64,000 nt of DNA from Acidocella sp. (GTDB lineage: Bacteria; Pseudomonadota; Alphaproteobacteria; Acetobacterales; Acetobacteraceae). Shown here in pieces: positions 28,720 to 44,699 of the stretch. The stretch covers positions 1 through 64,000 of the forward strand of contig JAMFRU010000050.1 in NCBI GenBank assembly GCA_026224875.1. Reading direction: 5' to 3'. How positions within the stretch are numbered: the first letter of the stretch is position 1; each line of letters opens with the position of its first letter. The position numbers were made by a program, and so were the translations under genes. The notes under the pieces were generated by a model. That model was given only the letters and a program-made list of their open reading frames with translations. It had not been told where the DNA came from and ran no database searches.

Positions 28720-28722
28720 ATC

Positions 28723-29520
28723 ATGGCGACCACGCCGTCGCTTGCCAGGTTGTTCGTATTTCGCGGACAATTGAGCCGTAAAATTAAGTTTTTTGCGGGT
28801 TTGCTGACGGCACTTGCCGCCATCGGCATATGGGCGGCGGCCCCGATGCTGGGCTGGATCGAGCCCATCTTCCTCCCCTCTCCCTGGGCGGTGCTGCAGG
28901 CGTTGTGGATCATGGTCACGCAGAATGGGCTGCTGACCGATGCGGGCATTTCCATCGCCCGCGTCTGGGCCGCTTTTCTGCTTTCGGCGATCATGGCGGT
29001 GCCGCTTGGCATATTGATGAGCAGCTACCGCATCATCGGCGCCGCCTTCGAGCCGTTGATCGACTTCGTGCGCTACCTGCCCGTGCCGGCGCTGGTGCCG
29101 CTGGCCATTATCTGGTTCGGCATTGGCGAGGAGACGAAGATTTTTCTCCTTTGGCTGGGTACGTTTTTTCAACTGGTGTTATTGGTGGCGGAGGATATGA
29201 AGCGCGTGCCGCAGGAATATTTCGAAACAGCCTATACCATCGGTGCCCGTCCCTACCAGGCGCTCACCAGCGTGGCGCTGCGTGCTATGGCACCGTCGCT
29301 CGTGGATAATTTGCGCATCACTTTGGGCTGGTGCTGGACTTATCTCATCATCGCGGAAATCGTCGCCGCCTCGAATGGCCTCGGTTTCGTTATCTGGACG
29401 GCCCGGCGCTATATGGCTACCGACCAGGTCATGGCCGGGGTGCTGGTTATCGGGTTGATCGGCCTGCTCAGCGACCAGGCTTTGCGCGCGCTACATCGCT
29501 TCATGTTCCGGTATCTCTGA
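28723..29520 (+). CDS. ABC transporter permease, SsuC/TauC type
   Basis: A 265-residue inner-membrane permease with about six hydrophobic segments. The N-terminal SRKIKFFAGLLTALAAIGIW is followed by ISIARVWAAFLLSAIMAVPL, and the EAA-loop equivalent YETAYTIGARPYQALTSVAL-like region lies near residue 175. It starts 3 nt after the binding-protein stop and is followed 3 nt later by the ATPase. Normal length for the SsuC family. Confidence 0.88.
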   Translation: MATTPSLARLFVFRGQLSRKIKFFAGLLTALAAIGIWAAAPMLGWIEPIFLPSPWAVLQALWIMVTQNGLLTDAGISIARVWAAFLLSAIMAVPLGILMSSYRIIGAAFEPLIDFVRYLPVPALVPLAIIWFGIGEETKIFLLWLGTFFQLVLLVAEDMKRVPQEYFETAYTIGARPYQALTSVALRAMAPSLVDNLRITLGWCWTYLIIAEIVAASNGLGFVIWTARRYMATDQVMAGVLVIGLIGLLSDQALRALHRFMFRYL

Positions 29521-29523
29521 GCT

Positions 29524-30306
29524 ATGCAGCCTGTCCCTTATCTTCAATTCGCCTCCGTCACCAAAAAATTCGGTGAACTTGCCGTGGTGGAGCAGCCGTT
29601 CAACCTCATCATTCCGCGTGGCCAGTTCGTTGCCTTCCTCGGCCCCTCGGGCTGCGGCAAGACCACGCTGATGCGCATGGCTGGCGGACTGGACACGCCA
29701 TCCACGGGCAACATCTTGCTCGAGGGCGCGCCGGTCGGCCCGCCGGACCGGCGCCGCGGCATGGTGTTCCAGTCCTATTCGTCTTTCCCCTGGCTTACGG
29801 TTGAGCAGAATGTGCTGTTCGGCATGAAATACCGGCGCGACATACTGCAATCGCAAAAACGCGAGCGTGCCGCGCATTACGTGCGCCTGGTCGGGCTTGC
29901 GGAATTCGCCAAGAGTTTTCCCAACCGTATTTCCGGCGGTATGCGCCAGCGCGTAGCCATCGCCCGTACATTGGCGGCGGGGTCGGAAATTCTGCTGATG
30001 GACGAGCCTTTTGGCGCGCTCGATGCGCAATTGCGTGAAGAGCTGCAGGTCGAGCTGCGCCGCATCCAGTCCGAGGACCGGAAGACAATTATTTTTGTCA
30101 CCCATGACGTCGAAGAAGCGGTGTTCCTGGCCGACCGCATCATCGTCTTCTCGCCCCGCCCGGCGCTGATCCGCGCGGATATCGATGTCACCGCCGTGCT
30201 GGGCGCGAAGCGCGATCTGGCGACGCGCGATAGTGCCGAATTTTTTAAATTCCGTACCAGTATTCTGCATATGCTGCGCGCGGCACATGCCAAGGAGAGC
30301 GCATGA
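29524..30306 (+). CDS. ABC transporter ATP-binding protein, SsuB/TauB type
   Basis: A 260-residue ATPase. Walker [10 protein letters not shown] (about residues 40-48), the signature [15 protein letters not shown] (about 137) with a variant ISGGM instead of LSGGQ, typical of the SsuB/TauB group, Walker [13 protein letters not shown] (about 157) and [14 protein letters not shown]. It overlaps the next SDR gene by 4 nt. Completes the importer with the two preceding genes. Confidence 0.9.
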
Positions 30307-31052
30307 ATTTCACCGGCAAAACCGTGCTCATCACCGGGGCGAGCCGCGGCATCGGCTATGGCATCGCCCAAGGTTTTGCCGCGGCTGGGGCCACGCTGCA
30401 TCTGTTGGCCGATGATGCGCAGGTGCTGGAGGCGGCAAAAGCCATCGGTGCCACGGGCCATGTTACGGATATAACCGATGCCGCCGCCGTAGCGGCGGCG
30501 CTTGCCGGAATCCCGCAGGTCGATGTGCTGATCAACAATGCCGGGCTGGAGCGCCTCACACCGCTTGACGATCTCTCCAGCGAAACACTAGAGGTTTTCC
30601 GGCGCGTCATCGATATCAATATCGCCGGCACCTATATCGTCACGCGTGCGGCGCTACCGCGCATGAGGCAGGGAGGGCGGATCGTCAGCACAGCCTCGGT
30701 CTGGGGCCGGGTTGGCGAGCCGCTGTTCGGCGCCTATGTCGCGTCCAAACATGCCATCATTGGCCTCACCAAAACCTGGGCGAAAGAGCTTGGCCCACGC
30801 GGCATCAATGTCAACGCCGTCGCCCCGGGTTGGGTCGAAACCGGCGCTGCGTTACGCTCGCTCTCACTCATGGCCACACGCCGCAATATGGAGGAGACGG
30901 ATTTGCTGGAAGAAATATTGCAGGGCCAGGCCTTGCCCGGGCTGATGCGGCCGGAAGACATGCAAGGGGCGTATATGTTCCTGGCTTCAGATCATGCCGC
31001 CAACATCACCGGCCAGACTTTGGGTGCCGATCGCGGCGAGGTACCGTATTAA
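30303..31052 (+). CDS. Short-chain dehydrogenase/reductase (SDR)
   Basis: A 249-residue NAD(P)-dependent oxidoreductase. The glycine-rich motif [13 protein letters not shown] is at residues 12-24, the NNAG motif near 77 and the catalytic YVASK (Y-x3-K) near 145. A conserved Ser lies in VSTASVWG. It overlaps the ATPase by 4 nt and shares its stop/start (TAATG) with the next SDR. It is one of two tandem SDRs that probably oxidise or reduce a hydroxyl or carbonyl group of the imported substrate. Confidence 0.9.
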
Positions 31053-31738
31053 TGCGCGTTCTTGTCACAGGTGCCGCCAGCGGCATCGGTCTGGCCGCGG
31101 CGCGCGCCTTCATTGCTGCCGGCGCAACCGTCGTGGGGCTGGATATTGCGGCGCCCCCGCCGGAAATTGCCTGGGTGCAGGTTGATCTTTGCGATCCCGC
31201 TGCCGTTACCGCCGCTGTAAACAAGGCCGCTGCGCAGCTTGGCGGGTTGGACACGGTGGTGAATTGCGCCGGCGTGGAATATGATGCGCCACTGCATGCG
31301 TTGGATGTGGCGGCATTGGACAAAATGTTCGCCATCAATCTGCGCGGGCCGATGCTCGTCGCGGCCGCGGCTTTGCCGCATATCGCCAAAGGCGGCGCCA
31401 TTATCAACATTGCCTCGGAGCTGGCCTATCTCGGCCGCGCCGGGGCCTCTGGCTATTGCGCCACCAAAGGTGCCATCCTCAGCCTCACCCGCTCCTGGGC
31501 GCGCGAGCTGGGGCCGGATATCCGCGTCAATGGGGTGGCTCCTGGGCCCATCGACACGCCTTTGCTCAATTTCGCGGGCATGTCCGCGGCGTTGCAAAAA
31601 CTGGAAACCAGCAACCCGCTCGGGCGTATCGGGCGGCCGGAAGAAGTGGCCGCGGTTATCCTGTTTCTCGCCAGCCCGGCGGCAAGTTTCATCACCGGTC
31701 AATGCTTTTCCGCCGATGGCGGCGCGGCAATGCACTAA
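31052..31738 (+). CDS. Short-chain dehydrogenase/reductase (SDR), second copy
   Basis: A 228-residue SDR with TGAASGIGLAAARAF at the start, NCAGVEYDAPLH near 70, INIASEL near 117 and catalytic YCATKGAIL (Y-x3-K) near 132. It shares TAATG with the preceding SDR, so the two are tightly coupled. It is clearly divergent from the first (different active-site surroundings), implying two steps rather than a simple gene duplication. Cofactor choice cannot be decided. Confidence 0.9.
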   Translation: MRVLVTGAASGIGLAAARAFIAAGATVVGLDIAAPPPEIAWVQVDLCDPAAVTAAVNKAAAQLGGLDTVVNCAGVEYDAPLHALDVAALDKMFAINLRGPMLVAAAALPHIAKGGAIINIASELAYLGRAGASGYCATKGAILSLTRSWARELGPDIRVNGVAPGPIDTPLLNFAGMSAALQKLETSNPLGRIGRPEEVAAVILFLASPAASFITGQCFSADGGAAMH

Positions 31739-31750
31739 AGGAAGCAAAAA

Positions 31751-32524
31751 ATGGTTGACAGCGTCTTCATGGCCGAACTCACCTGGCCCGAATGGAAAGC
31801 AAAAATTGATGGCGGGGCCATCATCTTTATTCCCCTCGGCGCCACCGAACAACATGGCCCGCATCTGCCGTTGAATGTGGATGTGATTCTCCCTACCGCC
31901 GTATGCGAGGCCGTGGCACGCAATACCGGCGGCCTGGTCGCGCCCACATTGGCCTATGGCTATAAATCCATGCCGCGCTCGGGCGGCGGCCAAAGCTTTC
32001 CCGGCACCACCAGCCTCGACGGCAATACTTTCAGCCTGATGCTGCGCGATATCATCCGCGACATGGGCGCGCATGGCGCACGGCGTTTCGTGCTGGTCAA
32101 CGGGCATTATGAAAACGCCTGGCCGGCCGTTGAAGGCCTCGATCTCGCTTTGCGTGAACTGCGCCGCGACGGCATTACCGATGCCACCGCCATGCGTCTC
32201 GAATACTGGGATTTCGTGAAGCAGGAGACGCTCGAGCGCATCTTCCCCGAGGGCTTCCCCGGCACCGAGCTGGAACACGCCAGCCTTATCGAAACCTCGC
32301 TGATGCTGCTGCTCCGCCCCGACCTCGTGAGCCAGACCAAAATCCCGCAGGAAGGCCGTGCCTCGTTTCCGTCTTACGACATCCACCCGCCGCCGGCCGG
32401 TTACCTGCGCCAGTCCGGCGTGCTGGCCGATGCGCGCGGCTCACGCGCGGAAATCGGCCAATGGCTGATGGATGATCACGTCTCGATGATCACCCAGGCT
32501 GTAAAAAAGGAGTTCGGGCTGTGA
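31751..32524 (+). CDS. Creatininase-family amidohydrolase
   Basis: A 257-residue metal-dependent amidohydrolase of the creatinine amidohydrolase superfamily, which opens cyclic amides such as creatinine. Metal-ligand motifs visible are the Glu and His of GATEQHGPHLPLNVDVILPT (about 30-50), the His of VNGHYENAW (about 118) and the Glu of EHASLIETSLML (about 178). Shine-Dalgarno AAGGAAG precedes the ATG. It overlaps the first ureohydrolase gene (GTGA). Creatininase, amido-ring opening or related N-formyl hydrolysis are all possible. Confidence 0.87.
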   Translation: MVDSVFMAELTWPEWKAKIDGGAIIFIPLGATEQHGPHLPLNVDVILPTAVCEAVARNTGGLVAPTLAYGYKSMPRSGGGQSFPGTTSLDGNTFSLMLRDIIRDMGAHGARRFVLVNGHYENAWPAVEGLDLALRELRRDGITDATAMRLEYWDFVKQETLERIFPEGFPGTELEHASLIETSLMLLLRPDLVSQTKIPQEGRASFPSYDIHPPPAGYLRQSGVLADARGSRAEIGQWLMDDHVSMITQAVKKEFGL

Positions 32525-33456
32525 CATTGTTCGAGCCGCAGGACGCAGCGGTTATTCCACGCTTTGCCGGTACGCCCAGCTTCTTCCGCCTGCCGATGCT
32601 CACCGACCCGGCGGAGGTCGATGTCGCCCTTATCGGCGTGCCGTTTGACGGCGGCACCACCAACCGCCCCGGCACGCGCCATGGCCCACGGGAAATCCGC
32701 AACCAGTCCAGCCTGATGCGCCGCATTAACGCCAACGGGGTCTCGCCGTATGATACGCTGCGCGTCGCCGATCTTGGCGATTGCCCCGTAAATCCCATCA
32801 ATCTTCTGGATTCCCTCCAAAAGATTGAAACCTTCTTCAGCACCATTGCGCAGGCAGGTGCCGTGCCCATCACGGCGGGTGGCGACCACCTCATCTCGCT
32901 ACCCATCCTGCGCGCCCTCGCGCGCAAGGAATCCGTTGGCCTTATTCATTTTGATGCTCATTCTGATACGAATGATCTATATTTTGGCAATAACCCCTAT
33001 ACCCATGGCTCGCCCTTTCGCCGTGCCGTGGAGGAGGGGCTGCTCGATCCCAAACGCGTCGTGCAGATCGGCATTCGCGGCACATATTACCATGAATCCG
33101 ATTGGGATTTTGCGCGCGGCTGCGGTATTCGCATCATCACCATGGATGAGGTGATGGATCGCGGCATCACCGACGTCATTGCCGAAGCTCGGGCCATTGC
33201 CGGCGCGCTGCCAACCTATGTCACTTTCGATATCGACTGCCTGGACCCCGCCTATGCCGTCGGCACCGGCACGCCAGAGATCGGCGGGCTCACCACACGC
33301 GAGGCGCAGCGCATGTTGCGCGCGCTTGCCGGTCTCAACATCATCGGCGCCGATGTGGTGGAAGTATCGCCGCCCTTCGATCCCTCCGGGCTGACCGCAC
33401 TCACCGGTGCGACCATGATGTTTGAATTGCTATGCGTGATCGCGGGGAGGAGCTGA
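32521..33456 (+). CDS. Ureohydrolase (agmatinase/guanidinobutyrase-like), copy 1
   Basis: A 311-residue arginase/agmatinase-superfamily enzyme that hydrolyses a guanidino group to urea and an amine with a binuclear Mn site. Metal motifs are GGDHLISLP (GGDHS variant, about 119), HFDAHSDTND (about 143) and TFDIDCLDPAYAVGTGTPE (about 234). Starts with GTG overlapping the creatininase stop. Lies 1 nt before a second, different ureohydrolase. The exact guanidino substrate (agmatine, guanidinobutyrate, guanidinopropionate or guanidine) is unclear. Confidence 0.88.
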   Translation: MTLFEPQDAAVIPRFAGTPSFFRLPMLTDPAEVDVALIGVPFDGGTTNRPGTRHGPREIRNQSSLMRRINANGVSPYDTLRVADLGDCPVNPINLLDSLQKIETFFSTIAQAGAVPITAGGDHLISLPILRALARKESVGLIHFDAHSDTNDLYFGNNPYTHGSPFRRAVEEGLLDPKRVVQIGIRGTYYHESDWDFARGCGIRIITMDEVMDRGITDVIAEARAIAGALPTYVTFDIDCLDPAYAVGTGTPEIGGLTTREAQRMLRALAGLNIIGADVVEVSPPFDPSGLTALTGATMMFELLCVIAGRS

Positions 33457-33457
33457 T

Positions 33458-34417
33458 ATGGCCCATGGCTATGAAACAGGGCGGCTGAACCTGCCCTTCG
33501 TCGGCATCTGCAGCTTCGGCAAATATCCAATCCAGCTGGACTGGGATCATATCGATGCCGATGTCGCCGTACTGGGCGCGCCGTTTGACGGCGGCACGCA
33601 ATGGCGCGCCGGCGCGCGTTTCGGCCCCCGTGCCATACGCGAGGCCTCCACACTTTTCGCCTTCGGCCATGCCGGCGCCTATGATCATGAGGATAACGCC
33701 GTCTACCTGGCGGATTGCCGCATCGTCGATATTGGCGATGCCGATATCGTGCATACCGACACAGAGAAGAGCCACGCCAACATTGAGACCGGTGTGCGCA
33801 AAATCCTCGCCGCCGGGGCGCTTCCCGTCGTACTTGGCGGCGATCACTCCATCAACATCCCCTGCATCCGTGCTTTTTCAGAACAGCCGCCGATGCATCT
33901 GGTGCAGATCGACGCGCATCTCGATTTCGTCGACGAGCGCCACGGTGTCCGCCACGGCCATGGCAACCCCATGCGCCGCGCCGCCGAACAACCTTGGATC
34001 ACCGGGCTGACACAGATCGGCATCCGCAACGTCTCCTCCACCGCGCGGGATGGGTACGAGGATGCGCGCGCCATGGGCTCAGACATCATCTCCGTCCGCC
34101 AGGCACGCGCACTCGGCATCCAGGCCTTGCTTAACCGCATCCCGGCTGGCGTGCGCTATTACGTCACCATCGACATCGATGGCTTTGATCCCTCCATCGC
34201 GCCCGGCACGGGCACGCCAAGCCATGGAGGGTTTGCCTATTACGAAGTGCTGGAGCTTTTGGCGGGCCTTGCCAAACGAGGCACGATCGTGGGAATCGAT
34301 GTGGTTGAGGTTGCTCCGGACTACGACCATGCGGGTGTAACATCCGTGCTGGCGGCGCAGCTAACCCTGAACCTTATCGGCCGCGTCATTGCCGCCAGAG
34401 ACCCCGCCCCACGGTAA
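33458..34417 (+). CDS. Ureohydrolase (agmatinase/guanidinobutyrase-like), copy 2
   Basis: A 319-residue ureohydrolase with GGDHSINIP (about 128), LVQIDAHLDFVDE (about 149) and TIDIDGFDPSIAPGTGTPSH (about 238), all carrying metal-binding His/Asp residues. Good Shine-Dalgarno (GGGAGGAGC). It differs substantially from copy 1 (for example DIDGFDPS versus DIDCLDPA), so the pair may act on two substrates or form a heteromer. It closes the operon of SsuABC-type importer, SDRs, creatininase and ureohydrolase. Confidence 0.88.
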   Translation: MAHGYETGRLNLPFVGICSFGKYPIQLDWDHIDADVAVLGAPFDGGTQWRAGARFGPRAIREASTLFAFGHAGAYDHEDNAVYLADCRIVDIGDADIVHTDTEKSHANIETGVRKILAAGALPVVLGGDHSINIPCIRAFSEQPPMHLVQIDAHLDFVDERHGVRHGHGNPMRRAAEQPWITGLTQIGIRNVSSTARDGYEDARAMGSDIISVRQARALGIQALLNRIPAGVRYYVTIDIDGFDPSIAPGTGTPSHGGFAYYEVLELLAGLAKRGTIVGIDVVEVAPDYDHAGVTSVLAAQLTLNLIGRVIAARDPAPR

Positions 34418-35142: not shown

Positions 35143-36066
35143 TTAGCCACCTTCGAGCGCACGGATGGTCACGGCAACGGCCGCGGTTCGGGTCTCGACG
35201 CCGAGCTTGGGGTATATTTGTTCCAGGTGTTTATCGATTGTGCGGTAGCTGATCTCGAGAATTTGCGCGATGTCGCGGTTGGATTTACCGCGCGCGAGCC
35301 AGAGCAGCACCTCGGCCTCGCGGGGGGTGAGCTTGCCCCGCTCCTGCAGGCGGCTGATGTCGTTGTTACGGTCATGTGCCGTAATACGCAACAAAAACTC
35401 GCCGTCGGCGAGGGGACCGATCAAGGCGAATTCCACCTGCTTCTTGCTCGGCTCCGGCATCAGGCAGGTGATGGTCTCGGCGATATGTTGCGGCTTAGGT
35501 GCCAGCTTTGCGCGCAGCCAGTCGCGCACGTCAGGCGGCAATTGCATGCCCGCTGCGAGGCCGCCAAGCAGTTGGGAAGCCTGGTGCGTGCTCCAGCGCA
35601 GATGCCCGGCGGCATCGGTGGCGAGCAGGTGGCGGCCCGAGACGTCCATGGCGTGCTGGGCGCTCCGGGTCAGCTGCGCAGTGGCCAGATGCACACGGAT
35701 GCGCGCGATCAACTCGTCAGGCGCCACGGGCTTTGTCACATAATCCACCCCGCCCGCCTGCAGCCCATTCACCACACTTTCGGAATCGGTAAGGCCGGTC
35801 ATGAAGATGACCGGCACCAGAGCGAGGTTGGCGTTGTGCTTGATGCGGCGGCAGGTCTCGAAACCGTCCAGGCCGGGCATCAGCGCGTCGAGCAGAATCA
35901 CGTCCGGCGTGACCTGTTCCAGCAGCATCAGCGCCATGTCGCCTTGCATGGCCACCAACACGTTGAAGCCGGCCGGCTCCAGAATGTCGATCAGCAGGCG
36001 CAGCATCGTCGGCTCGTCATCGATGACCAGAATGGTGGCGCGCTGTCCTGTGTCAGGGCGGATCAT
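35143..36066 (-). CDS. Response regulator with LuxR-type DNA-binding domain
   Basis: A 307-residue two-component regulator. The N-terminal receiver (about residues 10-125) has the acidic pair VIDDEP, the phospho-acceptor Asp in ILLDALMPGL and a Lys in YVTKPV. A middle region (about 140-230, without a clear domain) is followed by a LuxR helix-turn-helix (about 240-300: LTPREAEVLLWLARGKSNRD, ISYRTIDKHLEQIYPKLGV). The ATG at 36066 overlaps the end of the kinase gene by 14 nt and has GGAG 7 nt upstream. It is the cognate partner of the NCS1-fused kinase and probably activates the amide genes nearby. Confidence 0.92.
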   Translation of the reverse strand: MIRPDTGQRATILVIDDEPTMLRLLIDILEPAGFNVLVAMQGDMALMLLEQVTPDVILLDALMPGLDGFETCRRIKHNANLALVPVIFMTGLTDSESVVNGLQAGGVDYVTKPVAPDELIARIRVHLATAQLTRSAQHAMDVSGRHLLATDAAGHLRWSTHQASQLLGGLAAGMQLPPDVRDWLRAKLAPKPQHIAETITCLMPEPSKKQVEFALIGPLADGEFLLRITAHDRNNDISRLQERGKLTPREAEVLLWLARGKSNRDIAQILEISYRTIDKHLEQIYPKLGVETRTAAVAVTIRALEGG

Positions 36067-39000
36067 CGGCAATCTCCTCAAGCGCCTTCAGAAACTCCGG
36101 CAGGCGGAGAGATTCGACCAGGGCCTGCAGCGTGGTGCTAAGCTCACGTGCTGCTGGGTCTTCCAAGGCGACCTTGCTCAGGCATTCCTGCAGGCCGCGG
36201 ACGAAACCGATGCCGGCGAGCGTGCGCAATTGCGCGACATGCGGGCGCATCGCGGCGCGCCCGGCCAATAAATCATCGGCACTCTCCACAGGAGGCGGTG
36301 TGCTGGTTTGGGTATGCCAGCGCAGGCGGAGCAACTGACCGATGGTCTCAAAGAGGAGTGAAATATCGACCGGCTTGGCGAGCACGGCATCATAAGGCAC
36401 GGCCGGACCCGGGCGTAGTTCCGGCGCGTGGGCCGAGAGGATAACGATTGGGGTGGCCGCATGCCGCCCCGTGCGCAAATGCCTGGCCAGGGCAAGCCCG
36501 TCGAATTCCGGCGCGCTATCCAGCGGCATCGAGATGTCGAGCAGGAAGAGATCAGCATCATGCTCTTGCGCCAGACGCAGGCAGGATGGGCCGTCTGGTG
36601 CGGTGAGAAGCGTGAAGCCAGCAGGGGTGAGCGCGTCGCGCAGCAAGGCGCGGTGCAATGCATTGTCCTCCGCGGCGATGATGCTGCGGCGCGGGCCGTC
36701 GTAACCGGTGATGCGGCTGGGAATGGCGGCGGCCGGGCGCGGCTGGGCGGCCGCAGGCAGGCGCAGCTGCACCTTGAACCGGCTGCCAACCCCTGGCGTG
36801 CTTTCCACCGAGATGCGCCCGCCGAGAATCTCCGCCAGCAATTTGGTGATGGTGAGGCCGAGCCCGATGCCCTGCACCGGGGCCATGCCGGGCGGCGGGG
36901 CGACACGTTCGAACGGCTCGAAAATGCGTTTGATATTGGCCGGCGCGATGCCCGGGCCGGTATCACTGACCTCGAACTCCATCACCTCGCCGGGAATGCG
37001 CAGGGTGAAGCATATATGCCCGGTTTCGGTGAATTTGAGCGCGTTGGAGAGCAGGTTGATGAGGATCTGGCGCAGACGGATTTCGTCGGTAAACACGCTG
37101 GCGGGCAGCCGGGCGGGATAGTCGAATCGGAAGTCGAGCCCTTTTGCCGCCGCCTGCAAACGGAACATGCCGGCGATCTGGGACAGAAAATCCATCAGCC
37201 GCACCTCGCGCCGCTCAATCTCGATGCGCCCGGCCTCGATTTTGGAAATATCCATCAACCCTTCGATGAGCCCCTGCATATGTTCGCCGCCGCGGCGGAT
37301 AATCCGCATGGCCTCGCGCCGGTGCGGCGGGATGGAGTCGTCCTGTTCCAGCAATTGGGCATAGCCCAGCACGGCATTCAGCGGTGTGCGCAACTCATGG
37401 CTAACGCTGACGATGAAGCGGGTTTTCGCGAGGTTGGCAGCCTCGGCCACGGCGCGGGCGCGGGCCAGCATGGCATCGGTACGGCGGTGCGCGTCGATTT
37501 CGGTGAGGAGGAGCTGCGTCTGCCGGCGGCTTTCCTCCTCGGCGGCGCGGCTGGCTTCGCGCGCCAACACTTGCAGCCAGGCGAACACGCCGGCTACCAG
37601 CAGCAAGCAGATGAAGGCACGCCAGAGGGTGGTGGCGAGCAGGTCGCCCGGTGCCAGGCGCAGGCTGCCTGACTGCCAGTAAAGCCCGGCGAGGATCAAC
37701 CCGAGCAGGAGCCCGGCCAGTGAGAACACGCCGAGGAAACGCAGCAGCACTGGGTCGAGCCGTGAGCGCAGGCCGGCGGGCAGGATGCGCCGCATCAGGG
37801 TGGTGATCTGCGCGCTGTAGCGGGCATGCGGCTTGCAGGCGTCGTGGCAGCGGGAATCCAGCGTGCAGCACAGTGAGCAAATGGGTGCCGCATAGGCCGG
37901 GCAGTAGGCGATATCCTGCGGCTCGAAGGCATTGCCGCATACGCCGCAGGCGCGCTCGCCCTGGCTCTGCCAAGCGCGGCGAGGCTTGCGGGCGAGGTAG
38001 TAGCGCCCCTTGGTGGCCCAGGCGATGGCGGGCACGGTGACGAAGGTCGCTGCCAGCGCCAGGAACGGTGCGAAAGCATGGGCATAGGCACCCAGCAGCC
38101 CGGCCACGGCGGCCGCCCCCACCAGCGTGGCCACGGCCATGGCACCCGTGCCGACCGGGTTTATGTCGTACAGATGCGCGCGCTTGAACTCGATATTGCG
38201 CGGGCCCAGGCGCAAGCCTTTGACCAGAACCAGATCCGTGAAAATCGTCCCAACCCAGGCGCAGGCCAGTACGGAGTAGAACGACAGTAACGGCTCAATG
38301 GAGCGGTAGATGTCGAGCTCCATCAGCAGCAGCGCGAAGGCGGTGTTGAAGACCAGCCAGACGACGCGGCCGGGATGGTGATGGGTGAGGCGGGAGAAGA
38401 AATTCGACCAGGCGATGGAGCCGGCATAGGCGTTGGTGACGTTGATTTTGGTCTGTGCCACGGCCACCAGCGCGGCGGCGGCGGCCAGGGCCAGCGGGCC
38501 GGGTAGGAACAGCCCATAGGCGACACGGTACATATTGGCAGGCCGCCCCGCCTCGAGCCCGTAGCCAGCATGCAGCGCCAGCACTGCGAGAACCGAGCCG
38601 GCCAGGGCCTTGAGCATGCCGGGGATCACCCAGCCCGGCCCGGCGAGGATCAGCGCCGTCCACCACCGCCACCGCCGCCCTGGGGTGGGTGGTGGCAGGA
38701 AGCGCAGATAATCGACCTGCTCGCCGATTTGCGCCAGCAGTGAAGCAATGACCGAGGCGCAGATGCCAAAGGGCAGCAGAGCGAAGCCGGCATGGCCCGT
38801 GTTGCCGGGAAAGTGCCGCCAGCCATGCAGCAGTGCCGGATGCATGGCTACGTAGATGATGGGCAGAAAATTCAGCACCAGCCAGAAAGGCTGAGTCCAG
38901 GCCTGGAAGCGGCTGATGAAGGTGACGCCGTAGGCCACCAGTGGAATAATGCCAGCGGCACTCAGTATATAGCCGAGCCAGAGCGGCACGCTGAACACCA

Positions 39001-39427
39001 GCTCCAACATGCCGGCAAAAATTGAGGCCTCGATGGCGAAAAAGATGAAGGTGAAGGAGGCGTAGATAAGCGAGGTGATCGTCGAGCCGATATAGCCGAA
39101 GCCGGCGGCGCGGGTGAGCAGATCGATATCAACCCCGGCGCGAGCTGCCGCATAGGAGATGGGGGCGGCAGTGATGGCAATGAGCAGGCCGACGGCGATG
39201 ATGGCCGCCACCGCATTGACGGTGCCGTACTGCAAGGTGATGCCGCCGCCAATGGCCTCCAAGGCGAGGAAGGAGGTGGCGCCGAAAGCCGTGTTGGCGA
39301 TTTTGGGTGCGGAAAACTTGCGCGCCGACAGTGCCGTGAAGCGCAGGGCGTAATCTTCCATCGTCTCGTCAGCGACAAACTGGTTATACGAGCGGCGGAC
39401 CGATGAAATGCGCTGTGGAAGTGCCAT
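36053..39427 (-). CDS. NCS1 permease fused to a hybrid sensor histidine kinase
   Basis: A 1124-residue membrane protein combining a complete transporter with a signalling kinase. Residues 1-480 are an NCS1 (cytosine/purine/hydantoin-type) permease of about 12 helices. Residues 494-531 form a Cys-rich, probably metal-binding module with pattern C-x2-C-x11-C-x7-C-x2-CC-x5-C-x3-C. Two more helices (about 561-583 and 600-622) precede the HisKA domain (phospho-acceptor His677 in SVSHELRTPL), the HATPase domain (N-box Asn791, GIGLGLTIT near 853) and a receiver domain (phospho-acceptor Asp964). The last 80 residues have no clear domain. It is divergent from the fmdA gene, 187 bp away. It is most likely a transporter-type sensor of an amide, analogous to CbrA, which is a fused sodium-solute symporter kinase. 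Confidence 0.9.
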   Translation of the reverse strand: MALPQRISSVRRSYNQFVADETMEDYALRFTALSARKFSAPKIANTAFGATSFLALEAIGGGITLQYGTVNAVAAIIAVGLLIAITAAPISYAAARAGVDIDLLTRAAGFGYIGSTITSLIYASFTFIFFAIEASIFAGMLELVFSVPLWLGYILSAAGIIPLVAYGVTFISRFQAWTQPFWLVLNFLPIIYVAMHPALLHGWRHFPGNTGHAGFALLPFGICASVIASLLAQIGEQVDYLRFLPPPTPGRRWRWWTALILAGPGWVIPGMLKALAGSVLAVLALHAGYGLEAGRPANMYRVAYGLFLPGPLALAAAAALVAVAQTKINVTNAYAGSIAWSNFFSRLTHHHPGRVVWLVFNTAFALLLMELDIYRSIEPLLSFYSVLACAWVGTIFTDLVLVKGLRLGPRNIEFKRAHLYDINPVGTGAMAVATLVGAAAVAGLLGAYAHAFAPFLALAATFVTVPAIAWATKGRYYLARKPRRAWQSQGERACGVCGNAFEPQDIAYCPAYAAPICSLCCTLDSRCHDACKPHARYSAQITTLMRRILPAGLRSRLDPVLLRFLGVFSLAGLLLGLILAGLYWQSGSLRLAPGDLLATTLWRAFICLLLVAGVFAWLQVLAREASRAAEEESRRQTQLLLTEIDAHRRTDAMLARARAVAEAANLAKTRFIVSVSHELRTPLNAVLGYAQLLEQDDSIPPHRREAMRIIRRGGEHMQGLIEGLMDISKIEAGRIEIERREVRLMDFLSQIAGMFRLQAAAKGLDFRFDYPARLPASVFTDEIRLRQILINLLSNALKFTETGHICFTLRIPGEVMEFEVSDTGPGIAPANIKRIFEPFERVAPPPGMAPVQGIGLGLTITKLLAEILGGRISVESTPGVGSRFKVQLRLPAAAQPRPAAAIPSRITGYDGPRRSIIAAEDNALHRALLRDALTPAGFTLLTAPDGPSCLRLAQEHDADLFLLDISMPLDSAPEFDGLALARHLRTGRHAATPIVILSAHAPELRPGPAVPYDAVLAKPVDISLLFETIGQLLRLRWHTQTSTPPPVESADDLLAGRAAMRPHVAQLRTLAGIGFVRGLQECLSKVALEDPAARELSTTLQALVESLRLPEFLKALEEIADDPP

Positions 39428-39614
39428 TATACCCCTTCACCCAAAATTCGTTCGAGGCGTCTCGCTTTCTTTAACAGGTAAACGGCCAATCTGGCTTCTA
39501 AACGCACGTTAGCCGGTAAACCGCGCAGGGGAATACGCACTCCACCGTATTCCGTTCGGCCGGGCTAATTTGGAGGCTACCCTCCACGTAAGCCTGTAGC
39601 CAATGGAGATTCCC

Positions 39615-40847
39615 GTGCCAGAGACGCTGATCAAAGTCGATCTTTCCAGCTCGCCCCTGGGTAATGACATGCTGCACAACCGCTGGCATCCCGATATTCC
39701 CATGGTGGCCAAGGTGAAGCCCGGGGATGATTTCATCCTCGAATGCTACGACTGGACCGGCGGTTTCATCAAGAACAACGATTCCGCCGATGATGTTCGT
39801 GATATCGACCTCTCCACCGTGCATTATCTCTCCGGCCCCATCGAGGTGGAGGGGGCCGAGCCGGGAGACCTTCTGGTTGTGGATTTCCTCGATATCGGCG
39901 TGCTGCCCGGCAATGAATGGGGCTTCAATGGTTTCTTCTCGAAAAAAAATGGCGGCGGGTTTCTTACCGATCATTTCCCCCAGGCGCAGAAATCGATCTG
40001 GGATATCAAGGGCATGTTTACCAGCTCGCGGCATATACCTGGGGTTAATTTCGCCGGGCTTATCCACCCCGGCCTCATCGGCTGCCTGCCAGACCCAGCC
40101 ATGCTGGAGATGTGGAACACGCGCGAGGCAGCGCTGATCGCCACCAACCCCACACGTGTGCCAGGCCTGGCCAACCCGCCATTCGCCCCCACCGCGCATA
40201 TGGGGCGCATGCAGGGGGAAGCCCGCGATGCCGCGGCCGCCACGGGGGCGCGCACCGTGCCGCCGCGTGAGCATGGCGGCAATTGCGACATCAAGGATCT
40301 TTCGCGCGGTGCCAGGGTGTATTTCCCGGTCTATGTCAAAGGGGCGGGCCTGTCCGTCGGCGATCTGCATTTCAGCCAGGGCGATGGAGAAATCACCTTC
40401 TGCGGCGCCATCGAAATGCCGGGCTTCATTCATCTGGGCATCCATTCGCTCATCAAGGGCGGCATGGCGAAATACGGGATCAAGAACCCGATCTTCAAAC
40501 CCAGCCCGATCAAGCCGAATTACCAGGATTATCTGATTTTCGAGGGTATCTCCGTCGATGACAGCGGCACGCAGCATTATCTCGACATGTTCACCGCCTA
40601 TCAGCAGGCCTGTATGAATGCGATCAACTACCTTACCAAATTCGGCTATTCCGGCGCTCAGGCCTACTCCATCCTCGGCACCGCCCCCGTGCAGGGGCAT
40701 ATCTCCGGCATCGTCGATGTGCCCAATGCCTGCGCCACGCTCTATCTGCCGACCGAGATTTTCGAGTTCGATATCAACCCCACCGCCGCCGGTCCCACGC
40801 GCTTCATCACCCGCGGTGTCGACCTGCCGCTCTCGCCCGATAAGTGA
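39615..40847 (+). CDS. fmdA: Formamidase/acetamidase FmdA
   Basis: A 410-residue amidase of the FmdA/AmdA family that hydrolyses formamide or acetamide to the acid and ammonia. Segments such as HNRWHPDIPMVAKVKPGDDF, ECYDWTGGFIKNNDSADDV, REHGGNCDIKDLSRGARVYF and FCGAIEMPGFIHLGIHS match the Methylophilus-type formamidase. I prefer the GTG at 39615 (MPETLIKVDL, Shine-Dalgarno GGAG at 39605-39608) over the ATG at 39603. It is the first gene after the divergent promoter region facing the NCS1-kinase gene, and is followed 9 nt later by fmdB. Confidence 0.92.
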   Translation: MPETLIKVDLSSSPLGNDMLHNRWHPDIPMVAKVKPGDDFILECYDWTGGFIKNNDSADDVRDIDLSTVHYLSGPIEVEGAEPGDLLVVDFLDIGVLPGNEWGFNGFFSKKNGGGFLTDHFPQAQKSIWDIKGMFTSSRHIPGVNFAGLIHPGLIGCLPDPAMLEMWNTREAALIATNPTRVPGLANPPFAPTAHMGRMQGEARDAAAATGARTVPPREHGGNCDIKDLSRGARVYFPVYVKGAGLSVGDLHFSQGDGEITFCGAIEMPGFIHLGIHSLIKGGMAKYGIKNPIFKPSPIKPNYQDYLIFEGISVDDSGTQHYLDMFTAYQQACMNAINYLTKFGYSGAQAYSILGTAPVQGHISGIVDVPNACATLYLPTEIFEFDINPTAAGPTRFITRGVDLPLSPDK

Positions 40848-40856
40848 GGCCAGATA

Positions 40857-41183
40857 ATGCCAATTTATGATTATATGTGCACCACCTGCGGCCCCTTCAC
40901 CGCATTAATGCCGATGGCCGATTTCGACCTGGACCTTGGCTGCCCAGAATGCGGCACGGCAGCACCGCGGGCACTCCTCACCGCGCCGCATTTCGCGAAC
41001 ATGAACTCAGACCGCAAAAAGGCCTTCGCCGCCAACGAAAAATCATCCCACATCCCACAAACCACAGCCGCCACCGGCCGCCACCCACCCAGTTGCAGCT
41101 GCTGCAAACCCACCAAACGCACCGCCGACAGCCCCGCCATGAAGACCACCACCGGGTCCCGTCCGTGGATGATCAGCCATTGA
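40857..41183 (+). CDS. fmdB: FmdB zinc-ribbon protein
   Basis: A 108-residue protein whose N-terminal zinc ribbon has Cys8-x2-Cys11 (MCTTCGPF) and Cys29-x2-Cys32 (CPECGTA). FmdB-family proteins are encoded with formamidase and are thought to be regulatory. The C-terminal tail is Ser/Pro/Lys-rich and ends RPWMISH, with two further Cys pairs around residue 81 (CSCC). Its final codons and stop lie inside a 32-bp arm of the inverted repeat at 41170-41451, so the C-terminus is partly encoded by repeat DNA. Confidence 0.88.
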   Translation: MPIYDYMCTTCGPFTALMPMADFDLDLGCPECGTAAPRALLTAPHFANMNSDRKKAFAANEKSSHIPQTTAATGRHPPSCSCCKPTKRTADSPAMKTTTGSRPWMISH

Positions 41184-41451
41184 GGGTTTAAGGAAAAAGG
41201 CGGGGGCTCCGCCCCTCGACCCCGCTGGGGCCTGAAGCCCAGACCCCCACCACCCGGGCCTGAAACAGGGAGGGGGGCAATTTATCCTAGTATATGGCTT
41301 TCCATATACTAGGATAAATTGCCCCCTCCCTGTTTCAGACCCAGGTGGGATCCAAGGGCCCTTCGGCCCTTGGCGGGTCGTCACGCCGGAGGCGTGCTAC
41401 GCACGACGGCAGAGCCCTGGCCTTTTTCCTTAAACCCTCAATGGCTGATCA
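41170..41451. repeat. Nested inverted repeat between fmdB and amiE
   Basis: Outer arms 41170-41201 and 41420-41451 are a perfect 32-bp inverted repeat (arm starts TGATCAGCCATTGAGGG), containing the fmdB stop in one arm and the amiE stop at the edge of the other. Inside lies a near-perfect hairpin, 41260-41297 pairing with 41302-41338, with a single one-base bulge and a 4-nt loop. Smaller GC-rich palindromes (GGGGGCTCCGCCCC near 41202, AGGGCCCTTCGGCCCT near 41355) are also present. It likely acts as a bidirectional terminator of two convergent genes, but its size and mirrored stop codons suggest a repeat or mobile origin. Confidence 0.85.
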
Positions 41452-42471
41452 CTCGGTCGGGATTCCGTCGATTGGGCATTCGGCTGTCCCGGGGGCGGTG
41501 CGGGTGATGGCTTCGACTTTGGCGCGGGTGGCTTCGGGGTCGGTTACCCATTCGCGGTAGAAGTCGAAGGGGCAGATGGCCATGCCGGGCTGGTTTTCGC
41601 GTGAGTTGATCATGCCTGTGTAGCCACGGTGCAGGAGTTTGTAGAGGTGGTTTTGTGATTGCATATTTTTGCGGGCGTCGCGGATGAGGAATTTTGAGAG
41701 GGCAGCGTATTGAATGCCGTAATCCTCTTCGCCGCATTCGCCGAGGGTGCGGCCGTCGAAGCCGATGAGGGCGGAGTGGCCGAAATAGGAATAGACGCCG
41801 TCGAATCCGGTGGCGTTGGCCACGGCAACGTAGACGTTGTTTGACCAGGCCATGGCTTTGGACATGAGGATTTGCTGCTCCTTGGCCGGGTACATATAGC
41901 CCTGGCAGCGGATGATGAGTTCCGCACCTTTCATTGCGCAGTCACGCCAGATTTCGGGGTAATTGCCGTCATCGCAGATGATGAGGCTGATTTTCATGCC
42001 CTTTGGTCCATCCGACACATAGGTGCAGCCGCCGGGATACCAGCCTTCGACCGGCACCCAGGGCATGATCTTGCGGTATTTTTGTACGATCTCACCCTGG
42101 TCGTTGATGAGGACGAGGGTGTTGTAGGGGACTTTATGGGGGTGTTCCTCATGGCGCTCGCCGGTGAGGGAAAACACGCCCCAGACTTTTGCACTTCTGC
42201 AGGCCGCGGCAAAGATTTCCGTTTCCGCGCCGGGGATGACGGCGGCGGTTTCCATCATTTCGCCGGGGTCGTACATGATGCCTTGCGTCGAATATTCGGG
42301 GAAGACGATGAGATCGAGCCCCGGCAGGCCGAGCTTGATGCCGGGGATCATGGCCGCGATTTTATGGGCGTTTTCCAGCACCTCTGCCTTGGTGTGCAGA
42401 CGGGGCATTTTGTAATTGACAACGGCAACGCCGACCGTGTCGGCACTGCTCGAAATATCTCCATGCAGCAT
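41449..42471 (-). CDS. amiE: Aliphatic amidase AmiE
   Basis: A 340-residue nitrilase-superfamily amidase hydrolysing short aliphatic amides (acetamide, propionamide, formamide). The catalytic triad residues are Glu59 (FPEYS), Lys134 (KYRKIM) and Cys166 ([10 protein letters not shown]), at the same positions as in Pseudomonas AmiE. The start [20 protein letters not shown] is closely related. The ATG at 42471 has AAAGG about 8 nt upstream. No AmiC/AmiR pair is present; the NCS1-kinase system nearby may replace it. It is convergent with fmdB and followed upstream by the NCS1 permease gene on the same strand. Confidence 0.95.
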
Positions 42472-42546: not shown

Positions 42547-44229
42547 TTAGAGGTTAAGGTCGGCCGGCGTGCCGAAGGAGAGCACAGGATCGGCGTGCGG
42601 CCGTTTGCACATGTCGTCACAGTTTGCTTCGAGCGAGCAGCAGAGCGAGCAGATATTGCCCTTGAGGAAGGGGCAGCTGGCCATGTCCAGTTGCTCATAC
42701 TCGTAGCCGCATGAGACGCAGCTCAGCGTGCTATGCGTTATACCGGCATGGGCGCTGGGCTCACGCGCGATATAGTATTTGCCCTTGGTGGCGATGCAGA
42801 TGATGGGCGAGAGAATGAAGGAGACGCCAAGGGCGATGAAGGCGGAATAGGCCTGCGCATAGGCGCCGAACAGGTTGAAGAACGCGAGCACGGAGATGAC
42901 CGAGGCGATGGCCATGGCGCCGAAGCCGACGGGATTGAAATTATAGAGATGCGCGCGTTTGAATTCTACGTAAGACGGGCTGAGTTTCAGCAGCGGCTTG
43001 TTGATGACGAGGTCGGCCGTGACGGCGCCGATCCAGGCGACGGCGACGTTGGAGTAGAAGCCGAGAATATGCCCGAGGAAGCTGAACATGTTCAGCTCCA
43101 TCATGGTGAGCGAGATGCCGACATTGAAGAAGATGTATACGATGCGGCCAGGATGGGCATGGAAGATGCGCGAGAAGAAGTTCGACCAGGAGAGCGAGCC
43201 CGAATAGGCGTTGGTGACGTTGATCTTGATCTGCGAGAGGATCACGAAGAATGTTGCGACGGACACCGCCACCATGCCGGCGCCAAAAATATAGGTGAAG
43301 CCGGTGTGGTACATCTGGATGGGCTCGTTCGATTTGGCGAGCGGCGTGCCATGGCTGAAGGCGAGCGAGGCGAAGAACGAGCCCATAAGCTGCTTGGCGG
43401 CGCCCAGGATAACCCAGCCAGGCCCTGCACCGAGCACGGCAAGCCACCAGCCGAAGGAGTTTTTCGCCGTCTTGTCCGGCATGAAGCGCAGATAATCCGC
43501 CTGCTCGCCGATTTGTGCGATGAGCGAAAGGGCGATGCCGGCAGCCGCACCGAACAGCAGCGGGTTGAAGCTTGAACCGCTCGGCGATGCGCCTGCGAAA
43601 TGGAACCAGGTGTTTATGGCGTGCGGGTCCATATACAGCACGGCGACCGGCGGTGCGAACAGCAGCGTGAGCCAGATTGGCTGTGTCCACACCTGCAGTT
43701 TTGAAAGCAACGTCATACCGAAAGCCACGAGCGGGATGATCATGAGCGAACCCAGCGCGTAGCCAATCGGCAACGGAATGCCAAAATACAGATTGAAGGC
43801 CTGCGCCATGATCGAGCCTTCAAGTGCGAAGAAGATGAAGGTGAACGAGGCGTAGATGACCGAGGTGATGGTGGAGCCGAGATAGCCGAAACCGGCGCCG
43901 CGCGTGAGTAGATCGACATCGACATTATACTTGGCGCAGTAATAGGCGATGGGGATGCCGGTAAGAAAGATGATCACGGCGGCGGCGATGATGCCCCAGA
44001 ACGCATTTTCAAACCCATAGGCCACGGCGAGCGAGCCGCCGATGGCCTGGTCGGCAAGATAGGCGATGCCGCCAAGTGCCGCCGAAAAGACCGCATATTG
44101 CGACCAGGTACGAAAGCTCTTGGGTGCGTAGCGTAGCGAGTAATCCTCGATGACCGGATTCGCAACAAATTTATTAAATTTGCGCTGCGGCGGCGGGACG
44201 CTGGTAATGACCGGATCTGATGCAGACAT
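42547..44229 (-). CDS. NCS1-family permease with Cys-rich C-terminal module
   Basis: A 560-residue inner-membrane transporter of the NCS1 (cytosine/purine/allantoin) family with about 12 helices (residues about 25-480). It shares TDLV, NIxFKRAHLYNxNPVGxGAMA and GSTITSVIYASFTFIFF segments with the kinase-fused permease. The C-terminal module repeats its Cys pattern exactly (SCVSCGYEYEQLDM, then SLCCSLEANCDDMCKR). The ATG at 44229 has GGAGG 5 nt upstream; the ATG at 44241 is less likely. It lies upstream of amiE on the same strand and may import the amide or a related heterocycle. Confidence 0.93.
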   Translation of the reverse strand: MSASDPVITSVPPPQRKFNKFVANPVIEDYSLRYAPKSFRTWSQYAVFSAALGGIAYLADQAIGGSLAVAYGFENAFWGIIAAAVIIFLTGIPIAYYCAKYNVDVDLLTRGAGFGYLGSTITSVIYASFTFIFFALEGSIMAQAFNLYFGIPLPIGYALGSLMIIPLVAFGMTLLSKLQVWTQPIWLTLLFAPPVAVLYMDPHAINTWFHFAGASPSGSSFNPLLFGAAAGIALSLIAQIGEQADYLRFMPDKTAKNSFGWWLAVLGAGPGWVILGAAKQLMGSFFASLAFSHGTPLAKSNEPIQMYHTGFTYIFGAGMVAVSVATFFVILSQIKINVTNAYSGSLSWSNFFSRIFHAHPGRIVYIFFNVGISLTMMELNMFSFLGHILGFYSNVAVAWIGAVTADLVINKPLLKLSPSYVEFKRAHLYNFNPVGFGAMAIASVISVLAFFNLFGAYAQAYSAFIALGVSFILSPIICIATKGKYYIAREPSAHAGITHSTLSCVSCGYEYEQLDMASCPFLKGNICSLCCSLEANCDDMCKRPHADPVLSFGTPADLNL

Positions 44230-44699
44230 AAAAACCTCCATGGGCGGGAGCTACCCGGATGATTCGATGCCGTGTACTATTGTTTCCTGCGGGGATATGA
44301 CGATACGCGGGCCCTGCCTGGGAATAAGGCGCTTAACCGGGGGGTGTGCGGCGTTCTACGTATAAGGCAATGTATAAGGCAATCAGTCCGGACATAGCTT
44401 GGTGTGAGTCGCGCTCTGAAAGAGTGGATGACGTCGCCTGCCGCTGACGAGCCATGTTCGCGATACAACTGGCCCAAGCTCAAGCGGGCCGGGCGTAGGG
44501 GTATAAGCGTGGCTCACCGTTCAATGATAATTTAACATTTTACAGGAAATACCATACTCACTACCCGTCAGGCTTCCTGAAAACGCATGGCTTGGCAAAA
44601 TTTGCCGCTGGAGAGGAGCTTCTTGATCGGTCAACATGGAACGCGGCCGGGCGGCAGGCCGGCAACATCGCGATTAAACGCATCACACGAGCACAGCCC
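44230..44699. other. Divergent intergenic region with a 12-bp tandem repeat
   Basis: About 470 bp between the NCS1 permease gene (minus) and the molybdoenzyme gene (plus). A perfect two-copy tandem repeat of GTATAAGGCAAT occupies 44360-44383. The rest is likely promoter DNA for both genes, with no recognised protein or RNA gene. Confidence 0.45.

Follow-up and report, generated by a model that had tools for sequence, protein, structure and literature searches.

What does a histidine kinase sense when its input is built like a transporter? The question is raised by a gene of Acidocella sp. (Acetobacteraceae; assembly GCA_026224875.1) on contig JAMFRU010000050.1, of which we analyzed positions 1 to 64,000, hereafter the window. 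Its product joins a permease-like domain, a cysteine-rich module and two further helices to a hybrid histidine kinase. Transporter-kinase fusions are rare, and whether they read flux or binding is debated. Based on our findings, we consider it probable that this kinase is a transporter-derived receptor for urea or short amides that controls the formamidase gene fmdA, the aliphatic amidase gene amiE and a kinase-less sister permease; the identity of the ligand, urea or a short amide, we infer from the gene context. The parts of the protein and the gene beside it are the following (TM, transmembrane helix; ORF, open reading frame; AF2, AlphaFold2).

36053..39427 (-): NCS1-like permease, Cys module, 2 TM and hybrid histidine kinase, 1124 aa; ORF, Pfam, AF2 model, fold searches
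37988..39370 (-): NCS1-like permease domain, residues about 20-480, with invariant E133 (TM3) and K327 (TM8) and with L56 in TM1; hhalign, fold, conservation
37835..37948 (-): eight-Cys module, residues 494-531, predicted zinc-binding (treble-clef-like); invariant in 73 rows, pLDDT about 86 over the core
37568..37756 (-): two further helices, residues about 558-620, running into the kinase; AF2 model
37229..37429 (-): HisKA, residues 667-733, H677; Pfam, His in 69/69 aligned kinases
36755..37090 (-): HATPase_c, residues 780-891; Pfam
36344..36682 (-): receiver domain, residues 916-1028, D964; Pfam, Asp in 64/64 hybrids
35143..36081 (-): receiver-GerE (LuxR-type) response regulator; Pfam, NCBIfam, next gene in 19/19 loci of the class sample described below

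The ORF of the kinase is open and intact from 36053 to 39427 exactly, and its conservation across many genomes shows it to be neither a chance ORF nor an assembly artifact. With HisKA, HATPase and receiver domains present and H677 and D964 conserved throughout, the C-terminal part is a hybrid histidine kinase. Behind the receiver, no Pfam Hpt match was obtained and no tail column has His in more than 30% of the 64 hybrids. A TorS/ArcB/BarA-type layout with a C-terminal HPt domain was therefore rejected, and the role of the receiver may be to modulate the kinase instead of supplying an HPt domain. The regulator ORF lies downstream and, as called, overlaps that of the kinase by 29 nt. The fusion that had been predicted originally from the DNA letters, namely permease, Cys-rich module, two helices, HisKA/HATPase and receiver, is thus confirmed by the intact ORF, Pfam, the AF2 model and fold searches.

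Kinase residues 1-646 match no Pfam family above its cut-off or, apart from one chance RING match, even at E 10, and among 25 of the 102 NCBIfam match rows, none starts before residue 599. Because these databases give nothing for the N-terminal region, the permease part was examined by profile and fold; a fold search was needed since the permease part also found no match in the PDB by sequence, either singly (E up to 1) or as a profile (E up to 10). The AF2 model of residues 2-660 (mean pLDDT 88.5, pTM 0.89) shows a TM1 helix broken near residues 49-53 and membrane helices on to about residue 472, after which come the Cys module, as a small strand-turn-helix unit, and two long helices. In Foldseek, CodB (E 1.0e-9, TM score 0.77 by target length) and Mhp1 (E 2.4e-9) come out on top, and VIA-align gives CodB a Z of 35.4 and Mhp1 29.9, the first non-NCS1 entry reaching 25.6; the domain has a LeuT-type fold, with CodB and Mhp1 above all other LeuT-fold entries. 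In hhalign, it aligns over 358 columns (probability 96.9, E 1.9e-10) with a profile of 19 NCS1 proteins, 18 of which come from the window's genus or own genome, and with Mhp1 as the template row, the probability is 98.1 local and 99.3 global. Profile, fold rankings and model therefore agree on the NCS1-class permease that was first proposed. PF02133 gives no match to the kinase up to E 10, its search of the same genome yielding three other loci; we therefore call the domain NCS1-like and not a PF02133 member. It is a divergent NCS1-type branch that escapes PF02133. Over 73 diverse sequences, the permease-Cys region has about ninety invariant columns, and with no Pfam or NCBIfam model matched in the searches made, this input is an entry point to a family without such a model.

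The Na2 ligands of Mhp1 we take to be A38, I41, A309, S312 and T313. In the TM8 stretch, T331 aligns with T313 and V330 with S312, and K327 belongs to a three-residue insertion; read without gaps, K327 would come to lie at S312. A proton-coupled or ion-free mode is possible for a domain bearing such a lysine. Trp117, Gln121 and Asn318 of Mhp1, given roles as substrate residues in the accessible part of PMC4195764, align with F129, E133 and G336 and are not retained.

Between the permease and the two helices stands the eight-Cys module (C494, C497, C509, C517, C520, C521, C527 and C531; C-x2-C-x11-C-x7-C-x2-CC-x5-C-x3-C, core ICSLCC), with every cysteine invariant in the 73 aligned relatives. 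Its core is predicted to be of the treble-clef type (mean pLDDT of the module model, 73.5), and it probably holds zinc. A fold search with the module was rich in PHD, RING, FYVE and LIM entries, but the best E was 0.49; no significant structural match places it among the RING, PHD or FYVE zinc fingers, and a Prok-RING_1 match at E 6.8 was rejected as chance. The notion of a kinase-specific part did not hold up: kinase-less relatives retain the whole module, so that it has to be counted as part of the permease, not as a mere linker or kinase adaptor. Five Actinomycetota kinase-less permeases (L181-L185 in our numbering of loci), about 50% identical to the window's kinase-less permease, have a reduced module of four or five cysteines plus His, the last cysteines being missing. 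This pattern would fit two metal sites, one of them dispensable.

The genome of this Acidocella holds three copies of the input: the window kinase, a second hybrid kinase (L044) that is 52% identical over the first 646 residues and lies between urtABCD and urease genes, and the kinase-less sister, which sits 75 bp upstream of amiE. Neither this sister nor the paralog on the urea side had figured in the original prediction, nor had the spread of the family and the predicted operator described below.

42547..44241 (-): kinase-less sister, NCS1-like permease and Cys module, 564 aa, TM1 Asp present; 48% identical to the N-terminal part of the kinase

In Acidocella aminolytica (L045), the gene arrangement is the same, with the kinase 75% and the sister 86% identical. 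A scan of named genomes gave at least 591 relatives in Pseudomonadota, Cyanobacteriota, Bacillota, Actinomycetota, Campylobacterota, Myxococcota and Verrucomicrobiota; our contig set consists of the best 80 of these at least 591, ranked by likeness to the kinase-less protein and several of them on short contigs. In even samples, strong matches were found in 52 of 398 Pseudomonadota genomes (E 0.001 gave 60, from which 8 with weak or fragmentary matches were set aside), 12 of 244 Cyanobacteriota genomes (the phylum of L051) and 8 of 246 Actinomycetota genomes (the phylum of L060; 16 at E 0.001). In the Pseudomonadota sample, 58 of 59 strong matches lie in frames of at least 894 codons, and the only one of kinase-less size (567) is the window's own. 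The permease-Cys input is also joined to plain kinases (L051, L057, L067 and L083), to a PAS-hybrid-Hpt kinase (L073) and, in Sulfurimonas and Hydrogenovibrio (L070, L071 and L092), to GGDEF-EAL; L075 was grouped with these GGDEF proteins by length and tree place only. In a quick tree of 104 rows, made with no bootstrap and having several long branches, a branch with 99% support separates 24 kinase-less rows from the fused forms. A distant kinase-less permease from the same genome as L060 (L194; about 36-38% identical) has Phe56, Arg327 and its own Cys module, and perhaps another substrate.

Does the input transport, or does it only bind? The core residues E133, K327, N329, T331, N332, Y334, D239 and R242 are identical in the kinase-less (24 rows) and fused (77 rows) forms. 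At the TM1 break, residues 52/53/56 are A-Y-D in most kinase-less rows and S-F-L, S-F-C or S-F-M in all 80 others, which include 4 GGDEF and 3 cut rows. Asp56 is found in 24/24 kinase-less rows of this first set and in none of the 80 others. In other genomes, it is found in 7/7 Actinomycetota kinase-less rows and in none of 39 fused ones (28 Pseudomonadota and 11 Cyanobacteriota), with, for instance, L179/L180 (99.8% identical) and L150/L151 (98.7%) as near-copies among these rows; L186-L191, L193 and L195 were too distant for the residue frame, L192 is a fragment, and the repeats L177, L178 and L197 were left uncounted. Overall, 31 of 32 kinase-less proteins and none of 119 others have Asp56, the exception being L194. 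Positions 134, 335 and 339, fully or almost uniform in the first set, show exceptions in the other genomes (Gly134 in L165 and L173; Ala at all three in L179 and L180; Ala339 in L181-L185).

The original prediction had left open whether the kinase senses flux or binding, and had asked whether conserved transport residues are present. The conserved core is kept, but Glu133 and Gly336 replace Gln121 and Asn318, and the TM1 Asp is missing in the receptors; for these reasons, sensing of binding is favored over sensing of flux. The Asp56 difference suggests, at the level of sequence, an importer in the kinase-less form and a binding receptor in the fused form, and we infer that the permease domain of the kinase does not transport.

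What the receptor would bind is suggested by its neighbors, of which the window has these:

39603..40847 (+): fmdA, formamidase; NCBIfam NF045496, 740.7 bits against a cut-off of 500
40857..41183 (+): fmdB-type zinc ribbon protein; Pfam, NCBIfam
41449..42471 (-): amiE, aliphatic amidase; NCBIfam NF009802, 697.4 bits against a cut-off of 427

As had been predicted, fmdA is divergent from the kinase, with the LuxR-type regulator on the other side. In an even sample at class level (19 kinase loci besides that of the own genome, neighbors counted within about 19 kb), that regulator is always the next gene, urtA is present at 15 loci and fmdA at 9; rarity of the linkage to amide genes was not seen, and the predicted link stands. 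Of the 52 kinase loci in the contig set, 43 contain urtA, fmdA, amiE or urease genes, these linkage counts being raw, with no background set from unrelated kinases, and limited in reach by short stretches. The regulator was counted as adjacent at 38 of the 52, under a distance limit that misses some true neighbors. The neighbor table covers loci other than L074, L064, L061 and the window. Among 100 neighbors of 20 kinase-less genes, CN_hydrolase is the commonest Pfam family (7), and FmdA_AmdA, urease beta, MFS, amino acid permeases and GntR occur 3 times each. Plasmid copies adjoin urtABCDE in Sinorhizobium meliloti and urtABCDE-fmdA-fmdB-amiE in Methylobacterium currus. The common denominator of the family's neighborhoods is urea plus short aliphatic amides. 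Among the genes linked to the kinases, those for urea, formamide and aliphatic amides were seen, but none for nucleobases or hydantoin; a heterocycle, named earlier as a possible ligand, was therefore rejected.

Some neighborhoods have features of their own. One Streptomyces kinase-less locus (L072) has an adjoining PF02133 permease. BBP2-type outer-membrane porin genes adjoin the kinase-less permeases of L047 (4239-5474) and L048 (3490-4650), perhaps in parallel to the amide porin FmdC. In L037 (920-6317) and L035, two long genes by the regulator (1196 and 595 aa) have starts that resemble, by eye, urea carboxylase and allophanate hydrolase.

How the kinase would reach its targets is suggested by an 18-bp palindrome, ATACGTCA-NN-TGACGTAT, common to the divergent promoters of the permease-kinases. 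A weight matrix from 25 loci refinds it in 10 of 11 loci kept back (the exception being L042) and in 24 of 28 from other genomes (at most 3/300 shuffles as good; missing L156, L165, L173 and, narrowly, L172), many of the 28 being close kin of training loci (L157 and L160 are 97% identical to training locus L100); among the 12 test loci whose protein is less than 80% identical to any earlier row, 9 have it. In 1.79 Mb of loci, training loci included, 86 matches score at least 12; 63 of them lie within 600 bp upstream of a permease-kinase gene, urtA or fmdA, and some of the remainder are found some 1.3 kb upstream of urtA or fmdA, in front of a different gene. A second palindrome precedes fmdA in ten loci belonging to Pseudomonas, Stutzerimonas, Alcanivorax, Alloalcanivorax and Marinobacter, and at the own-genome paralog, the best site of the 19.7-kb locus is directly before urtA. 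The window has two candidate sites (PWM, position weight matrix):

39532..39551 (no strand): predicted operator AATACGCACTCCACCGTATT between the kinase and fmdA; PWM score 8.4, 102/10000 shuffles as good
44345..44364 (no strand): predicted operator upstream of the permease-amiE operon; PWM 11.4, top of the 64-kb window, 67/10000 shuffles of the 350-bp region as good

For these two, position is what counts, each score being weak alone. The A. aminolytica site between kinase and fmdA scores 9.8. Sites of at least 8.4 lie upstream of 3 of 24 kinase-less genes, all in Pseudomonadota (the window, L046 and L047). For the site between kinase and fmdA, the pattern ATACG-N8-CGTAT has one genome-wide match, as has its reversed control. 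The palindrome is a predicted operator, which the regulator would contact. A guanidine or other riboswitch was rejected, since an Rfam search of the window at gathering score gave no match.

Several observations weigh against a urea and amide receptor acting through this operator. Four class-sample loci (L031, L034, L038 and L039, the last three from one genus) have neither urtA nor fmdA. In the contig set, amide or urea genes are found at 11 of 23 kinase-less loci outside the window and are missing at the other 12, and none of 4 GGDEF loci has one nearby. The window operators are weak one by one (p about 0.01 and 0.007), shuffled windows average 1.6 matches as good as the weaker site, and in A. 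aminolytica, the score before the kinase-less permease is no higher than 5.7. There is no site at L042, L156, L165 and L173, and a site lies within 400 bp upstream of the permease start in only 43 of 72 fused loci, being placed before urtA instead in some. The search found no palindrome at the cyanobacterial, Polyangium, Pelagibius and Ferruginivarius kinases, for which reason we take the operator as a proteobacterial feature. Finally, a single branch sets the 24 kinase-less rows apart, so that Asp56 may have changed only once in evolution; the difference may be one ancient change, yet it has been kept through several phyla.

Other explanations have to be weighed with these points in mind. If the protein were a true transceptor, its permease domain would transport the amide or urea and the kinase would read the flux, as discussed for CbrA. 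The conserved core, the same in both forms, agrees with this idea, and so does CbrA itself, where the accessible text of PMC13022988 discusses histidine transport and sensing together and places a Lys (K196) at the Na2 site; the invariant K327 here stands in the TM8 Na2-ligand stretch. However, the split of Asp56 between kinase-less and other proteins speaks against transport by the kinase, as does the fused transporter domain of KsAmt5, reported in the available part of PMC8534201 as not efficiently translocating ammonium, and we think a transceptor unlikely.

The eight invariant cysteines raise the thought that the module senses pH, membrane potential, metal or redox, with the amide genes merely included in a broader nitrogen or acid response. 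The GGDEF-EAL and cyanobacterial fusions, mostly without amide neighbors in the stretches covered, point the same way. Yet kinase-less permeases beside amidases and ureases keep the same module, some Actinomycetota permeases have it only in reduced form, and the linkage in Pseudomonadota is narrow (urt, fmdA, amiE and urease); we regard such a signal as improbable. It would be harder still to believe that this is an ordinary hybrid kinase whose permease part is a mere membrane anchor and whose linkage to amide genes is historical. That no Pfam or NCBIfam family matches the permease-Cys part could be said in its favor, but so many invariant columns over diverse sequences, and the coupling of the same input to unrelated outputs, make an anchor very improbable.

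Returning to the receptor for urea or short amides, we propose the following mechanism. The NCS1-like domain would bind periplasmic urea or a short-chain amide (formamide or acetamide) without necessarily transporting it. Binding would shift the conformation of the domain, and the Cys (zinc) module and two extra helices would relay the change to the kinase. The kinase would autophosphorylate on H677, and the receiver D964 and the neighboring LuxR-type regulator would complete the relay, presumably in this direction. The regulator would then bind the palindrome and turn on amide and urea hydrolases and importers: in the window, fmdA-fmdB and the kinase-less permease-amiE operon, and elsewhere, urtABCDE-fmdA. 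The kinase-less sister would be the likely importer for AmiE and FmdA. From the respective gene orders, formamide or acetamide is the suggested ligand of the window kinase, and urea that of its own-genome paralog.

Two further parts of the window may be mentioned here. The plus-strand stretch 27718-34417 starts with SsuA/TauA-like ABC transporter genes (27718-30306) and a gene at 30303-31052, and ends with an arginase-family protein above the agmatinase cut-off (33458-34417), preceded by a similar, agmatinase-like one (32521-33456). Because agmatinase-like enzymes release urea, this may be a guanidino-compound cluster feeding the urea side. At 44592-47021 (+), a BisC/TorA-type molybdopterin S/N-oxide reductase gene is divergent from the kinase-less permease.

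The likeness to CbrA that was noted originally is upheld, and so is the other class of transporter, the NCS1 entries outranking the SLC5-type ones in Foldseek and VIA-align. CbrA and CrbS (SLC5-STAC) likewise have a LeuT-fold transporter domain joined via a linker module to a kinase, and CrbS also works with a LuxR-type regulator. In contrast to them, the window kinase is NCS1-like, has an eight-Cys module and two helices where they have the four-helix STAC bundle, has no PAS domain that we found, and is linked to amide and urea genes. Between permease and HisKA, where the strand-turn-helix Cys module is predicted, Pfam gives no match, the presence of a STAC model in Pfam being unchecked. KsAmt5 offers a parallel in that a transporter domain serves as a receptor, and the lost TM1 Asp suggests the same here; it differs in its Amt fold and its ligand, and no Cys module is mentioned for it in the accessible part of PMC8534201. 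With Mhp1 and CodB (NCS1, PF02133), the domain shares the fold and profile-level homology, but it misses PF02133, has Glu133, Gly336 and Phe129 for Gln121, Asn318 and Trp117, and carries the three-residue TM8 insertion with Lys327 and the C-terminal Cys module.

On the side of the targets, the same genes occur in the Methylophilus fmdCABDEF and Pseudomonas veronii amiE-fmdA-fmdB-urtABCDE clusters, for which the sources, as far as accessible, name no two-component sensor; the window system is a candidate. In those same partial sources, the Methylophilus amide genes are described as induced by formamide and urea and repressed by ammonia, a pattern that fits the proposed receptor. Urea and short-amide genes are known as inducible, again with no two-component sensor named in the available portion of PMC10781810. 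AmiC-AmiR also controls amiE in response to amides, but according to the accessible text of PMC13209695, AmiC is a binding-protein-type sensor and AmiR an RNA-binding antiterminator, that is, different protein classes. A 2026 genome paper on Ectopseudomonas places a hybrid kinase and a LuxR regulator beside urtABCDE and, in the part accessible to us, mentions no permease domain (PMC13296017).

Transporter-kinase fusions of the SLC5 and Amt classes are already known. Apparently new is the NCS1-class input with a built-in Cys module, common to kinases and cyclic di-GMP (c-di-GMP) enzymes and paired with a transporter sister; no description of an NCS1-kinase fusion was found in the open-licence literature, and prior work may exist elsewhere. 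A wider proposal, for and against which we see about equal weight, is that the NCS1-fold permease and zinc module form a portable sensory input class predating the split of several phyla, with two functional states. With the TM1 Asp, it would be an importer of urea or short amides; with Leu, Met or Cys in its place, it would be a non-transporting receptor that came to serve as the input of histidine kinases, hybrid kinases and c-di-GMP enzymes, and in Pseudomonadota, it would be the long-missing sensor of fmd, urt and amiE, acting via one conserved palindrome.

The window offers a natural control for such ideas, since kinase-less and fused sisters stand within the same 64 kb and differ at a handful of core positions that have been kept different over several phyla. 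The Asp/Leu difference in TM1 bears directly on what turns a transporter into a receptor, and with the kinase and the palindrome, the inducible genes for urea and short amides gain a specific candidate sensor and a candidate operator.

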